Positions 1 to 30,237 of a stretch of 30,243 nt of DNA are shown piece after piece. Made by a program: the position numbers and the translations under genes. The notes below the pieces were generated by a model, which searched no databases, was not told the origin of the DNA, and was given only the letters and a program-made list of their open reading frames with translations. Numbering within the stretch: position 1 is the stretch's first letter; the number at the start of each line of letters is the position of its first letter. Source of the stretch: a virus; IMG/VR virus record IMGVR_UViG_3300037584_003167, positions 1-30,243 of that record. One strand, 5' to 3'.

Positions 1-311
1 AAGAAATAGCTGTTGTAATTACTGAGGCAGTACAAGAAATTGTAGCTGATGCACCTGAAGAGTTAAAAGCACAACTATTTAAGAAAACAAAATTGTCTAA
101 GACTAAAAGAAACACGAAGTCTAGAATAGAAATGGCAAAAGAAAAAATTGCTAGAATACAAAAAAGACAAGATCTAAAGACAAAAACAAATTCAGGGAAA
201 AGGTATGTACATAACCCTGAAGCAATAAGTAAAGAAAAACAAGAATTTAAAATTAGCGAAGGACGTGAAATGAACACTATGGATCGCATTTTAAATAAAT
301 TGTATAAATAA
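1..311 (+). CDS. Scaffold-like protein, C-terminal fragment cut by contig start
   Basis: This is the last ~102 residues of the gene that is complete at 29236-30237. The frame is open from base 3. It carries the basic C-terminal region and ends in the same NKLYK tail. Relative to the complete copy it has three amino-acid changes (Glu for Asp before MAKEK, Asp for Glu in KRQ-LK, Glu for Gln before FKIS) and otherwise silent differences. It is not a second gene; it is the other end of the same circular locus, apparently from a slightly different strain. The major capsid gene follows 27 bases later. Confidence 0.85.
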   Translation, partial: EIAVVITEAVQEIVADAPEELKAQLFKKTKLSKTKRNTKSRIEMAKEKIARIQKRQDLKTKTNSGKRYVHNPEAISKEKQEFKISEGREMNTMDRILNKLYK

Positions 312-26169: not shown

Positions 26170-26191
26170 AAATTAAAGTTATATAAATATG
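26161..26191 (+). promoter_or_regulatory. Candidate phage late promoter, weaker copy 3
   Basis: ACAATT at 26161-26166, 11 bases, then GTTATATAAATATG at 26178-26191. This is one base shorter in spacing than copies 1, 2 and 4. It overlaps the end of the tape-measure gene and ends at the protease ATG. Confidence 0.4.
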
Positions 26192-26770
26192 CAAGTTATT
26201 GAACTAGTAATAGATGAAGAATCAGATGAAGTAGGTGTACAAGCTATTTCAGTAGTCAATTCACCAGCTGTAGAAGTAGATTGGATAGCATTAAACAAAC
26301 AAGTAATGCTAAAAGCATCAGACGAAAAAAAACGTATTTTGACTGGTGTAGCCTTAATTCCCAGTAAACAGATTTATCGGTATGATGAACAAATGGGTGA
26401 ATACTATATATTTTTTAGTAAAGAAACTATTGAAAAAGCCTCACAATTATTTTTAAAGGAATCAAATCAAAAAAATGCTACGTATGAACATGCATACGAT
26501 TTTGATGGTGGTATTGTAGTAGAATCATGGCTAGTAAGTGATCCTGAAATGGATAAAGCCAAACACTATGGTTTCAATGTTCCTAAAGGTACATGGATGA
26601 TCAGTATGAAAATTGAGAATGACAAAGTATGGAATGATGTTTTAGATGAAAAAGTTAAGGGCTTTTCGATAGAAGGATTTTTTGCTGATAAACTACAGAT
26701 GAACAAGTTAAGCGAGGAAGAAATTTTAGTACAAAAAATTAAAGACATCATCAATGAAGAAAACACCTAG
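26189..26770 (+). CDS. XkdF-type prohead maturation protease
   Basis: A 193-residue protein with the XkdF-family order: ILTGVALIPSKQIYRYDEQM, YYIFFSKETI, NATYEHAYDFDGG (His101), VVESWLVSDPEMDKA (Ser113), GFNVPKGTWMISMKI and VKGFSIEGFF (Ser160). His101 and Ser113 are the probable catalytic pair of a serine protease that trims scaffold or capsid proteins during maturation. It is encoded after the tape measure and before the paralogue array and scaffold candidate, the natural set of substrates. Confidence 0.8.
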   Translation: MQVIELVIDEESDEVGVQAISVVNSPAVEVDWIALNKQVMLKASDEKKRILTGVALIPSKQIYRYDEQMGEYYIFFSKETIEKASQLFLKESNQKNATYEHAYDFDGGIVVESWLVSDPEMDKAKHYGFNVPKGTWMISMKIENDKVWNDVLDEKVKGFSIEGFFADKLQMNKLSEEEILVQKIKDIINEENT

Positions 26771-26945
26771 TAGAATAACGAAAACTAGCAGTAAAAAAGG
26801 CTGTTTATGTAAGGATGGATCATACCATACAGATTGTTGTGATGGATCAATATGGTCTGAAGGTATAGGAATTATTAAAGGTGGTCACGTAGGCATAAAA
26901 ACTAGGACATCTACAAGTAGAAATAAAAACAATTCACATGGATAA
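26754..26945 (+). CDS. Small Cys-rich protein
   Basis: A 63-residue basic protein with a compact Cys motif (GCLCKDGSYHTDCCDGS, residues about 16-32), four Cys and a His in 14 residues, likely a zinc knuckle or disulphide loop. Ser/Thr/Lys-rich flanks surround it. I recall close relatives next to head genes in other flavobacterial phages. It overlaps the protease by 17 bases and the next gene by eight. The function is unknown; a virion cement protein is possible. Confidence 0.6.
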   Translation: MKKTPSRITKTSSKKGCLCKDGSYHTDCCDGSIWSEGIGIIKGGHVGIKTRTSTSRNKNNSHG

Positions 26946-27228
26946 AATTTTAGAACAAGTCAAAGTAATATATGGTCATTATGTACTGGCTGTAGCACGT
27001 GCAAAAAAGATAGAAAAACTACAAATGGAAATAGAAAGCCTATTACATGAAAAAGCTGATGATCTAAAAGGTTATGAAAATGCATTGAAAAAGCTAAAAG
27101 ATAAATCTAGTCGCAAAGGCAAAGCATTAGACTTAATAAAAAAGGTTAAACAAATGCAAAAAATTAGTATTATTAAGCATTACGAATCAAAAACTGATTT
27201 GAAAAATGCGACAAAAGAACAAGATTAA
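26938..27228 (+). CDS. Coiled-coil protein before the paralogue array
   Basis: A 96-residue, nearly all-helical, Lys/Glu-rich protein. It begins MDKILEQVK, similar in shape to the MQKILDKLAK start of the array proteins, but lacks the KVxL segment and the LGxDxP motif. It may be a diverged member or a partner. It stands 11 bases before the array and ends just after the start of copy 4 of the promoter-like element. Confidence 0.55.
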   Translation: MDKILEQVKVIYGHYVLAVARAKKIEKLQMEIESLLHEKADDLKGYENALKKLKDKSSRKGKALDLIKKVKQMQKISIIKHYESKTDLKNATKEQD

Positions 27229-27242
27229 GTTATATATATATG
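27211..27242 (+). promoter_or_regulatory. Candidate phage late promoter, copy 4
   Basis: ACAAAA at 27211-27216, 12 bases, then GTTATATATATATG at 27229-27242, the same spacing as at 2035 and 17291. It leads into the paralogue array and, beyond it, the scaffold and capsid genes. The motif ends at the first ATG of the array. Confidence 0.5.
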
Positions 27243-27632
27243 AGCATTAATAAGATTAACGAAAAGTTACATAAATCTAAAAAAGTAGATTTAAAAACAC
27301 GTAAAGTAAGTTTAAACAAATTAGATGAACTATCTGAAGAAGCTAGTATATCAGCTGGTAATTATCAATATGCTGCAGAACAAGTTGCAGAAGCACATAA
27401 ATTTTTAATGACTGCATGGGATATAGTACGATTTGAAGTACCTAGACCTGATGATATTCAAGATGAATTAGATGTAATAACTGAAAATTTAGATAGTTTA
27501 GGTATAGACCATCCATCTGAAGTACAAGAAGTACAACAAAACATAAATTTCGCAAAAGAGCAATTTAATCAGGTGTTAAAAGATATGGAATGGTGGGAAA
27601 TTAATCATGGTTTAGATAGATATTCAATTTAA
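27240..27632 (+). CDS. Array paralogue 1 (helical, LGIDHP motif)
   Basis: A 130-residue helical protein. The N-terminus reads INKINEKLHK, followed by KKVDL and RKVSL. Two helical segments are separated by LDSLGIDHPSEVQ (about residues 85-97). It has the most diverged N-terminus of the five, with two KVxL segments instead of one. It is the first gene after promoter-like element 4. No family function is known to me; its place suggests an internal capsid or scaffold-associated protein. Confidence 0.6.
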   Translation: MSINKINEKLHKSKKVDLKTRKVSLNKLDELSEEASISAGNYQYAAEQVAEAHKFLMTAWDIVRFEVPRPDDIQDELDVITENLDSLGIDHPSEVQEVQQNINFAKEQFNQVLKDMEWWEINHGLDRYSI

Positions 27633-27638
27633 TAAGAT

Positions 27639-28064
27639 ATGCAAAAAATACTAGACAAATTAGCGAAGGATAAAAGAAGCGTAAATTTAAATACAGCTGA
27701 TGAAATACGATCTGAAATGGAACGGATTTCAGATGATTTAGGTCTAGCTAGTTATTATGCCTATGAAAGATTTGAAGAAATATCTGATAAAGTAGCTGAA
27801 TTTAAATCAGAAATAAGCATAGAAGTAGATAATCAAATAGTAAATAGTGAGGTTACCTATCCTGAAGATAAACTACAAGGTTTAAAAGAAATGCTAATGC
27901 CAGTAGAACATGTAGCTGAAAGTTTAGGTGTGAACCCTAATGAATTAATGCCTGAATTTGATGAAGCCTTAGAATTAATGAAACAATATGAAGAAGTATA
28001 TAATGATTATAGGGATGCCTATAATACATTAGTACGAGAATCAGGTTTTTTAGCACAATTTTAA
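27639..28064 (+). CDS. Array paralogue 2 (helical, LGVNPNE motif)
   Basis: A 141-residue protein starting MQKILDKLAKDKRSVNL, the clearest form of the shared N-terminus. RSVNLNT also resembles RKVNLAT near the start of the capsid protein. Helix-turn-helix layout with ESLGVNPNELMPEFD at about 94-108. Strongly acidic, with no Cys. Six bases separate it from paralogue 1 and one base from paralogue 3. The function is inferred only from context. Confidence 0.6.
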   Translation: MQKILDKLAKDKRSVNLNTADEIRSEMERISDDLGLASYYAYERFEEISDKVAEFKSEISIEVDNQIVNSEVTYPEDKLQGLKEMLMPVEHVAESLGVNPNELMPEFDEALELMKQYEEVYNDYRDAYNTLVRESGFLAQF

Positions 28065-28065
28065 T

Positions 28066-28446
28066 ATGAAAGATAGCAGACAAAGAGTATTAGACAAATT
28101 AGCAAAAGCTAACAAGCCGTCAACAAGTGTTAAACTAGGTGCTGTACAAGATTTACAAGAGGGTTTAGGTTATTCAGATGTAGCATTTAATGTAGCGTTA
28201 GAATGGAATGATGAATTAAGTAATGAAATATATGAAAAAGTTTCATTAGGGTATGCATCATTAGAATTAGGTATAGAAAAATTAGAACCAGCTATAGCCG
28301 AAATAAATCAATTTATGGATGATTTAGGTGTAGATCCATTAGAATCTGTAGAAGATTATGATAAAGCTGTTAGAATGCTAGACTATTTACAAAATGTAAA
28401 ATCAGAATATGAAAAATTATTAAATTCACTAGATTTTAGACTATAA
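28066..28446 (+). CDS. Array paralogue 3 (helical, LGVDP motif)
   Basis: A 126-residue protein with the shared N-terminus moved four residues inward: RQRVLDKLAK, then NKPSTSVKL. The turn motif is DDLGVDPLESVED (about 86-98). Bases 28094-28135 are nearly identical to the start of paralogue 4, so these two derive from a recent duplication or conversion limited to the N-terminal signal region; the rest has diverged. Confidence 0.6.
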   Translation: MKDSRQRVLDKLAKANKPSTSVKLGAVQDLQEGLGYSDVAFNVALEWNDELSNEIYEKVSLGYASLELGIEKLEPAIAEINQFMDDLGVDPLESVEDYDKAVRMLDYLQNVKSEYEKLLNSLDFRL

Positions 28447-28449
28447 AAT

Positions 28450-28866
28450 ATGCAAAAGATATTTAACAAATTAGCAAAAACTAACAAGCCTTCAACAAGT
28501 GTTAAACATAAGGTAGACCTATCTAATATTACTGAATTAGAAGATCATGTAGAATTTGTTTTGGATATTGTAGAATCTGAAAGTAGTAGAAGTATAGATT
28601 TATTAAATGAATTAGGTGAATCTATGGGTGCATTAGATGGTGCTATGTCATTAGTAAAAGAAGATTATGAACATGCACTAGAATTAATGAATGCTATAGA
28701 AGATTTAGGTATAGATACACCTGATAGTTTAATAAGGGTTTTAGATCAACTAATGAATTTAGTAGATATGCGAAAAGAAGTACAGCCAAGCTATGAAAAA
28801 ACACAATTAGCATTTGGTGTTGTAACAAGTATAAATGAATTATCTGATTATGCAAAAAATTTATAA
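28450..28866 (+). CDS. Array paralogue 4 (helical, LGIDTP motif)
   Basis: A 138-residue protein: MQKIFNKLAKTNKPSTSVKH followed by KVDL, then a helix, EDLGIDTPDSLIRVLD (about 87-102) and a second helix. The N-terminal 19 residues match paralogue 3 closely at base level, while the body does not, suggesting that the signal region is under separate constraint. Its last 17 bases overlap the preferred start of paralogue 5. Confidence 0.6.
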   Translation: MQKIFNKLAKTNKPSTSVKHKVDLSNITELEDHVEFVLDIVESESSRSIDLLNELGESMGALDGAMSLVKEDYEHALELMNAIEDLGIDTPDSLIRVLDQLMNLVDMRKEVQPSYEKTQLAFGVVTSINELSDYAKNL

Positions 28867-29233
28867 TAAACTAGCCAAAGAAACACCAGCTAAACGAAAA
28901 GTAAAGCTAAGTAAAGTAAATGATCTAATGGATCAGATTAAAGAATGTCGTGAAGAAATGAATCAAATAGCTTTACAAAGTGAAAATGCATTAACTGATG
29001 TGCAAAATGCATTAGGTGAATTAAGAATAATTCAAGAATCAAAAATACCATCATTATCATTTGATAAAGATGAATTATTAAATCAGGTACTAGATTTAGG
29101 TATTGATGTACCACAAGAATTAAACGAATTAGATCAAATGTTGGTAGATGCTGAAACTATAGATGCTGATGCCTTTGATTTAGTATCAAAAGTAGAAGAT
29201 CTAAGATCAGAACTAAGTAAATTTATGTTATAA
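28850..29233 (+). CDS. Array paralogue 5 (helical, LGIDVPQE motif)
   Basis: A 127-residue protein from the ATG at 28850, chosen because MQKIYNKLAKETPAKRKVKL then aligns with the other array members; an ATG 15 bases upstream would add five unrelated residues. The turn motif is LDLGIDVPQELNEL (about 80-93). Acidic helical body. It overlaps paralogue 4 by 17 bases and lies two bases before the scaffold candidate. Confidence 0.6.
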   Translation: MQKIYNKLAKETPAKRKVKLSKVNDLMDQIKECREEMNQIALQSENALTDVQNALGELRIIQESKIPSLSFDKDELLNQVLDLGIDVPQELNELDQMLVDAETIDADAFDLVSKVEDLRSELSKFML

Positions 29234-29235
29234 TT

Positions 29236-30237
29236 ATGAAAGCAAAAGAAACACTAGACAAAATAAGAACAGCTTTAAATATGAAAGTAGAATTAGAAAC
29301 AATGACATTAGAAGATGGTGTCACAATTTTAGAAGCCGAATCATTTACGGAAGGTGCTGAAGTCTTTATCGTAATGGATGAAGAACGTGTACCATTAGCA
29401 GTAGGTGAATATACCCTAGAAGATGGTAGATCTTTAGTAGTAGAAACAGAAGGTATTATTGCTATGGTAGGTGAACAAGTAGAAGGTGAAGAAGAAGAAG
29501 AAGTAAAGCCTGAAGTAGATGAAGAAATGGCAAATGACAAGCCTAAAATGATTTCTGAAACTAAAATTAAAGAAACATATTTTGAAGAAGAAACACCTGA
29601 AGAAGTAGCTGATACTATTAAAGAAGTAGAAGATGAAGTTTTAGGTGAAGTATCTACAATTATCGAAGAATTAACACCTGAAGCTGTAACTGAATCAGAT
29701 GCCTCAGAAATGGCTGTAGCAGTCGTAGAAGCTGTTACAGATACTTTAGAAGAAATGCCTGAAGATTTAAAAGACGTATATAAGAAAAAACGTAAAAAGT
29801 ACGGCAAAGCAAAACTAACAGATGAAGAAGCTGAAGTAGTTGCTGAAGCTGAAGGGCAAATAACAGAGGCTGTAGCTGAAGTAGTAAGTGCTGAAACACC
29901 TGAAGAAATTACACCTGAAATAGCTGAAGAAATAGCTGTTGTAATTACTGAGGCAGTACAAGAAATTGTAGCTGATGCACCTGAAGAGTTAAAAGCACAA
30001 CTATTTAAGAAAACAAAATTGTCTAAGACTAAAAGAAACACGAAGTCTAGAATTGATATGGCAAAAGAAAAAATTGCTAGAATACAAAAAAGACAAGAAC
30101 TAAAGACAAAAACAAATTCAGGGAAAAGATATGTACATAACCCTGAAGCAATAAGCAAAGAAAAACAACAATTTAAAATTAGCGAAGGACGTGAAATGAA
30201 CACTATGGATCGCATTTTAAATAAATTGTATAAATAA
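29236..30237 (+). CDS. Glu-rich scaffold / capsid-assembly candidate
   Basis: A 333-residue protein directly upstream of the capsid gene on the circle. N-terminus: TLDKIRTALNMKVEL, a variant of the array's N-terminal motif. Residues about 22-80 look like a small beta domain (EDGVTILEAESF, RVPLAVGEYTLEDGRSLVVE). The middle is extremely acidic, with two ~42-residue helical repeats (147-188 and 221-262, each TPE..., EAV, MPEDLK/APEELK) that end in basic patches. The C-terminal ~70 residues are basic and end in MDRILNKLYK. Position, charge and coiled-coil nature fit a scaffold trimmed by the XkdF-type protease. Confidence 0.65.
   Translation: MKAKETLDKIRTALNMKVELETMTLEDGVTILEAESFTEGAEVFIVMDEERVPLAVGEYTLEDGRSLVVETEGIIAMVGEQVEGEEEEEVKPEVDEEMANDKPKMISETKIKETYFEEETPEEVADTIKEVEDEVLGEVSTIIEELTPEAVTESDASEMAVAVVEAVTDTLEEMPEDLKDVYKKKRKKYGKAKLTDEEAEVVAEAEGQITEAVAEVVSAETPEEITPEIAEEIAVVITEAVQEIVADAPEELKAQLFKKTKLSKTKRNTKSRIDMAKEKIARIQKRQELKTKTNSGKRYVHNPEAISKEKQQFKISEGREMNTMDRILNKLYK

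Follow-up and report, generated by a model that had tools for sequence, protein, structure and literature searches.

A probable two-part, removable packaging tag on diverging small proteins encoded between the prohead protease and scaffold genes of a 30-kb virus record

The window analyzed here is a virus record of the IMG/VR kind at its full length of 30,243 bases (IMGVR_UViG_3300037584_003167), and the element in question is a short N-terminal segment shared by five small proteins encoded in a row (the array proteins) amongst its head genes. Positions 26189-30237 begin with the protease gene, continue with the genes of a small Cys-rich protein, of a 96-residue protein that lacks the tag, and of the five array proteins, and finish with the scaffold gene. 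The 3' end of the scaffold gene is present at both ends of the window (93-311 and 30018-30237) with few amino acid differences between the copies, and thus the record has the look of a circular or circularly permuted genome in which two strains were assembled together. The genes that bear on the shared segment are:

26189-26770, + strand: XkdF-type prohead protease (Peptidase_S78_2; PF14550), the proposed cutter of [KRSN]-[VI]-x-L sites
27240-27632, + strand: array protein P1, an open reading frame (ORF) with the weakest helix match of the five
27639-28064, + strand: array protein P2, an ORF present in contig L070 too
28066-28446, + strand: array protein P3, an ORF
28450-28866, + strand: array protein P4, an ORF
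28850-29233, + strand: array protein P5, an ORF listed from 28835, with 28850 as the best start
29236-30237, + strand: scaffold candidate, 333 residues, acidic, matching phrog_24921
339-1328, + strand: major capsid protein with HK97 fold and an N-terminal extension (AlphaFold2 and Foldseek)

PF14550 (XkdF, S78_2) was the sole Pfam match of the protease at E up to 1, with 68.1 bits against a curated cut-off of 24 and a domain spanning residues 41-164, and the gene lies ~0.5 kb upstream of the array. The window protease is 41-57% identical to the proteases of relatives, and H101 and S113, invariant in nine relatives, are possible catalytic residues based on this conservation. The scaffold N-terminal domain is homologous to the C-terminal half of the protease-scaffold fusion of Nonlabens phage P12024S (phrog_24921, E 5.8e-7, residues 11-99 on 199-288). 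The capsid had no usable hit in Pfam, and its AlphaFold2 model (predicted local distance difference test, pLDDT, 79.8) matched the DT57C and HK97 capsids in Foldseek (E 5e-13 to 3e-11, prob 1.00, template modelling (TM) score 0.5-0.6), which assigns it the HK97 fold. No convincing family was found for the array proteins in PHROGs or Pfam, a search for close relatives of P5 turned up L070 alone, and a PDB fold search with the predicted P5 hairpin returned nothing at E below 0.4.

All five array proteins (27240-29233) start with a KLAK-like helix, with the window consensus [MR]Q[KR][IV][LFY][DN]KLAK, followed by [KS]VxL; the window sites have N, K, D, S, or E just ahead of the Leu. The AlphaFold2 model of P5 has a helix at residues 2-10, a low-confidence linker at 11-19, and helices at 20-83 and 89-126 that form a helical hairpin, with the predicted hairpin beginning at the final Leu of KVKL, the predicted cut. 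The segments and candidate sites (slash, proposed cut) are:

27240-27314, + strand: P1 tag MSINKINEKLHKSKKVDLKTRKVSL, helix INKINEKLHK, tandem sites KKVDL and RKVSL
27639-27689, + strand: P2 tag MQKILDKLAKDKRSVNL, by helix profile
28066-28137, + strand: P3 tag MKDSRQRVLDKLAKANKPSTSVKL, by helix profile
28450-28521, + strand: P4 tag MQKIFNKLAKTNKPSTSVKHKVDL, by helix profile
28850-28909, + strand: P5 tag MQKIYNKLAKETPAKRKVKL, by helix profile and AlphaFold2, cut predicted behind residue 20, where linker and hairpin meet
29236-29295, + strand: scaffold N-terminal segment MKAKETLDKIRTALNMKVEL, LDKI helix and site MKVEL/E, 14.7 bits with the array-derived profile
30010-30024, + strand: candidate second scaffold site KTKL/S, 9.7 bits
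30205-30234, + strand: scaffold C-terminal tail MDRILNKLYK, best non-array helix-profile match, proposed as a capsid-binding tail
26300-26314, + strand: weak candidate self-cut site QVML/K before the catalytic domain of the protease, hand-aligned with KMDL/A, KIEF/A, and EIKL/A of relatives
26690-26704, + strand: weak candidate self-cut site KLQM/N after the catalytic domain, in the same place as KLEM/S in relatives
339-380, + strand: capsid extension MKKNSLNKKRKVNL/ATTT, 14 residues, site KVNL/A (RKVNL, residues 10-14), helix absent

An earlier, sequence-only reading of this DNA had described the KLAK-like stretch followed by [K/S]VxL in the array proteins, LDKI and MKVEL in the scaffold, a part of the signal in the capsid, and an XkdF-type protease just upstream. 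The array pattern is present in five of five proteins, both scaffold elements are in place (with a helix of the same type also at the extreme C-terminus), and the protease is the PF14550 protein at 26189-26770; in the capsid the site RKVNL at residues 10-14 was confirmed as a site alone, with the targeting helix absent.

Relatives were gathered by a protease scan (66 loci), a capsid-alignment scan (at least 600 matched stretches, with the best 80 relatives kept), and a genome scan (8 loci, all Bacteroidota). Freshwater loci have 0-2 array genes between the Cys-rich protein and the scaffold, with at least one in 20 of ~48 loci. Array genes were also seen 3' of the scaffold gene, at the second gene downstream of the capsid gene, and downstream of the portal gene. 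Array proteins of the freshwater loci start with MNT[ED]KKVF[EN]KLFSxxK[VT]ELAS or a near variant, and those of other clades with MKPSVQKIITKLAKEKVELSS, MKKVEKVWAELSANKVELGELQKVELN, MSTLKSVGNKLFKTELATQKVELAN, or MKTPQELDKIYNKLPKEKTELSKVELA. Among the 69 distinct array proteins counted (100-170 residues), the last site ends at median residue 24 and 25 possess at least two sites, with a usual spacing of seven residues. Tandem sites in the array tags of L143, L127, L043, and others are usually exactly seven residues apart (KTELATQKVELA), a spacing that could represent redundancy or a coiled-coil register. Across several clades, ~70 array proteins have the helix and K[VT]EL[A/S/G] in common and possess divergent helical bodies. 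A weak LG[ILV][DN]xP (LGID) turn occurs in array bodies of several clades (e.g., window 29094-29120) at the predicted hairpin tip, and the bodies may be remote relatives in one fast-evolving superfamily.

Of the 62 array proteins gathered from relatives, 40 have the strict motif K[VT]EL[AGSN] within their first 45 residues (shuffled expectation, ~0.1), a rate that is circular because the motif had itself helped to collect part of the array set. The specificity of the motif is not circular: among 1072 other ORFs it occurred in six, namely five previously untallied array proteins and one scaffold start. A scan with the freshwater N-terminus pattern for the tag on larger proteins returned array proteins and unrelated chance matches only, and the scaffolds of the Mucilaginibacter and Sphingobacterium prophages from the genome scan have diverged and lack the motif. 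For 22 freshwater array proteins, mean pairwise identity was 82% at residues 2-13, 68% at 14-21, and 61% at 22-27, and then 18% and 14%, with synonymous differences in 32% of codon comparisons at identical residues. These synonymous differences indicate that selection acts on the protein, and conservation of the tag at the DNA level was rejected on the same grounds. The tagged bodies fall into 18 clusters at E 1e-3. A chance origin of the shared tag was rejected based on the shuffles and the proteome scans.

Evidence on the function of the second half of the segment also comes from outside of the array, with the capsid as the best test. A five-residue site profile was trained on the array sites alone and counted at 5 bits; enrichment at the array N-terminus is therefore circular and the other protein classes are the real test. 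Matches were concentrated in the first 40 residues of the scaffolds (33 versus 6.8 in shuffles) and in the last 60 (41 versus 6.6), with moderate enrichment in the scaffold middle (29 versus 12.7) and none in array bodies (4 versus 8.1), capsids (9 versus 12.1), or other proteins (47 versus 51.3). In freshwater scaffolds EVKLA is located near residue 17, many of them also have KVEMS at a distance of ~45 residues from the C-terminus, and toward the scaffold C-terminus the sites of relatives read KVEM/S, KTEL/S, or EVEL/S.

KVNL/A is the best site within the window capsid (11.9 bits; next, 6.7), and the stretch from the upstream in-frame stop to ATTT contains no further ATG. Nearly all capsids from the protease and capsid scans begin (M)A[TS]TT, and the loci examined have a stop a short way upstream of that start. 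The first capsid pattern demanded KVxL (37 capsid matches, e.g., MSLEKVNL/ATTT, MSNHKVDL/ATTT, and MKKVQL/ATTT) and was hence biased, so ATTTNIT was searched with the upstream residues left unspecified. Of the 38 capsids from this blind scan, 17 have Met alone before ATTT and 21 have an extension, and in 21 of 21 extended capsids (ten distinct extension peptides) the extension ends in [VI]xL directly before ATTT, with ends such as RNVNL, RNIKL, RNVAL, KNVEL, and KVNL; this count was read from the listing, and an expression demanding K or R directly before V counts 1 of 21. The initiator Met is usually removed before Ala, which would give cut and uncut capsids the same mature N-terminus and places the cut between Leu and Ala. 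The extended-capsid sequences fit cleavage after Leu by the XkdF-type protease. A T4-like cut after Glu was rejected, as the window sites and capsid extensions often lack Glu. The capsid extension was also rejected as a targeting sequence, as some extensions consist of only MRNVEL or MKKVQL, too short to hold a helix, from which it follows that site and helix are separate modules.

In 48 of 68 distinct proteases, the top-scoring sites at the two borders of the catalytic domain each outscore all sites inside it (shuffles, 3.3%), with KMDLA before the domain and KLEMS after it as examples from relatives. In two relatives, L178 and L177, the protease continues into a hairpin of array type and the joint reads EKVELG or KIKLA, and no clear site was seen at the L179 fusion joint. 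The hairpin-protease fusion ORFs occur at L177 3631-4620 (+), L178 202-1110 (+), and L179 2389-3228 (+). The protease-scaffold joint of P12024S holds KFEQFMQLFAEDKPEPAKAAVKLGEV, a helix-like stretch plus the site AVKLG, and the scaffold homology of two relatives to the P12024S fusion starts at that joint. The site is thus found in four protein classes (array proteins, scaffold, protease, and capsid). Many proteases also possess an extra C-terminal domain of ~105 residues (NNAKRG..LN.KVNNKCAT..GK.RA..L; e.g., L008:7895-8785, L025:10001-10891, L072:8007-9014, and L094:517-1524); its matches are proteins from Vibrio, haloarchaeal, cyano-, and Roseobacter phages, and it looks like a mobile domain.

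For the helix, a 10-residue profile was built from the five array helices and scanned over 9,368 windows of the 51 ORFs of the record. The five array proteins ranked first, followed by the final ten scaffold residues (20.4 bits), with the next real gene at 12.1 bits. The equivalent scan in the freshwater clade placed the scaffold C-termini best, after two array proteins absent from the set, and a pattern similar to the following is retained at scaffold C-termini across clades: [TS]x[DE][RS][VI][FYLM]x[KR][IL]. Pairs of array helix and scaffold tail were similar at p<0.05 in 45% of 56 comparisons, almost all of them freshwater. In phage P22, capsid assembly requires the C-terminal helix-turn-helix of the scaffold, and cargo is loaded by means of scaffold fusions (PMC9962691), which makes mimicry of the scaffold plausible, and recruitment of the array proteins by this route is proposed tentatively, at slightly less than even odds.

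We consider, with a probability of roughly 0.75, that the shared N-terminus forms a removable packaging tag in two parts, a helix and a protease site. The first part, a short amphipathic helix, would recruit the array proteins to the prohead as it assembles, probably through the place at which the similar C-terminal tail of the scaffold binds. The second part, a flexible linker ending in [K/R/S]-[V/I/T]-x-L and sometimes doubled, would serve as the site of the XkdF-type protease, cut after the Leu. During maturation, the protease would free itself, remove the array tags, and trim the scaffold at both ends, extended capsids would be trimmed to begin at Ala, cutting at the fusion joints (L177/L178, P12024S) would release parts, and the array bodies would remain in the head as internal proteins. 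Judged from where it occurs in the sequences, [VI]-x-L is very probably the maturation cut site, and it is likely that the helix recruits into the head, with the cleavage half much better supported than the targeting half. The sequence-only reading had suspected a targeting-and-cleavage system with KVxL near the cut site, to be sought in related phages as well. The placement of the site was upheld by the scaffold ends, protease borders, capsid extensions, and protease fusions, and the motif recurs in the array proteins of several clades with 6 matches in 1072 other ORFs; the cleavage component of that proposal is well supported, the recruitment component is kept as likely, and the capsid as a carrier of the targeting sequence was abandoned.

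Several alternatives would account for parts of these data. Array proteins may be extra components of the scaffold or core (like T4 gp67/gp68), joining the core through the tag, being cut by the protease, and exiting before DNA packaging. Their helix type and site are the same as those of the scaffold, their genes adjoin the scaffold gene, and their bodies are predicted helical hairpins, yet there are several sites per scaffold and essentially none in array bodies (1 above 8 bits in 5205 residues), many close relatives without array genes keep a full scaffold, and the array bodies diverge fast whereas the scaffold start does not. This role is considered unlikely. More improbable still is that KVxL is a docking motif or a helix cap that the hairpin needs for folding, instead of a cut site, with the likeness among head proteins due to a shared binding surface. 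The predicted start of the hairpin at Leu and the frequent seven-residue spacing of tandem sites would suit such a role, but in 21 of 21 extended capsids the site falls precisely where the mature capsid begins, and it also precedes a different type of domain in the scaffolds and flanks the protease domain, where a cap or docking motif is unexpected. That the shared N-terminus is a functionless remnant of recent gene duplication, as adjacent paralogues in the arrays and the weak LGID turn common to many bodies might suggest, is very improbable given that identity drops from 82% inside the tag to 14% beyond its border although synonymous sites differ, and given the presence of the tag on 18 body clusters and at several genome positions.

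For the removable packaging tag itself, a number of points weigh against the proposal. The array, scaffold, protease, and capsid counts are of related sequences and are not independent events, and the flanks of the window protease (QVMLK and KLQMN) score poorly with the site profile. The resemblance to the scaffold tail is significant in the window and freshwater clades and not in several others. Retention of the array bodies is argued mainly from the scarcity of sites within them, and no virion proteomics was found in the literature for any member of this phage group. Lastly, the tandem spacing might be a coiled-coil register, and KVxL might partly be a helix cap as the hairpin starts at the Leu, though a cap would not explain the capsid, scaffold, and protease sites.

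Two untagged genes separate the protease from the array. The small Cys-rich protein (CLCxDGxYSxxCCxG...QGIG; window 26754-26945 and L005:5965-6150) is located 3' of the protease in nearly all relatives and is perhaps metal-binding. The 96-residue Lys-rich protein (window 26938-27228) starts MDKILEQVKV, and a cut site was not seen near its start.

Capsid-targeting sequences are best known from T4, and related propeptides occur in jumbo phages. If correct, the packaging tag would extend the capsid-targeting principle to genomes of ~30 kb and to a different protease, and would assign the cut motif [VI]-x-L before A/S/G to an XkdF-type protease, for which no published cut motif was found in the literature. 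Collectively, the gene and protein comparisons suggest a previously undescribed way to load phage heads in a large group of Bacteroidota phages. The tag makes a class of unannotated phage proteins recognizable by sequence, would let them be found in uncultivated phages too, and could be of use as a short natural handle with which to load heads with proteins. If the array proteins were ejected, they would be candidates for early host take-over or anti-defence, like T4 IPI, though such an effector role is doubtful. Equally speculative is a natural cargo-loading code of Bacteroidota phages, in which a portable N-terminal copy of the capsid-binding tail of the scaffold plus a Val-x-Leu site would load fast-changing small proteins that enter the host, possibly against its defences.

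The closest functional parallel is the T4 capsid-targeting sequence (CTS), which is 10-19 residues long and targets proteins to the core, with gp21 cutting after (L/I)-x-E (PMC9026906). As on IPI-III and Alt, a short N-terminus is shared by diverged small proteins beside a prohead-protease site, and the scaffold and protease are also cut in T4 (PMC9026906), as is predicted here. The segment found here ends at a median of 24 residues, with 61-82% identity in the tag versus 14-18% in the body. The likeness to T4 that was first proposed holds for how the segment would work, and does not extend to the cut motif, [K/R/S/N]-[V/I/T]-x-L in place of (L/I)-x-E with V-x-L before ATTT in extended capsids, or to the protease family, PF14550 (XkdF, S78_2) by Pfam match in place of gp21. 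Further, the T4 CTS has affinity for the core, whereas the scaffold-tail resemblance suggests a target on the capsid side, and packaging is experimentally proven in T4 and here predicted from sequence. The crAss001 structure paper reports cargo proteins, and the terms protease, proteolytic, and cleave are absent from its main text (PMC10172136). In the jumbo phages SPN3US and phiKZ, diverged paralogues likewise carry identical N-termini (the first 15 residues of SPN3US gp53 and gp54 are identical, with 34% identity overall; PMC5694885) and propeptides have redundant cut sites, but these propeptides are mostly over 100 residues, with a short cut motif ending in Glu, and the portal and RNA polymerase subunits can be substrates. 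The head module of the Nonlabens phages P12024S/L (phrog_24921, phrog_11320) has a homologous protease, scaffold domain, and capsid, and differs in that protease and scaffold are fused, no array proteins occur between protease and capsid, and the capsid has no extension. In engineered P22, cargo gets into the shell when it is linked to the scaffold part that holds the C-terminal coat-binding region (PMC9962691); that system is engineered and places a large scaffold fragment at the cargo C-terminus, whereas the segment described here is a natural, short, N-terminal one with a built-in site.

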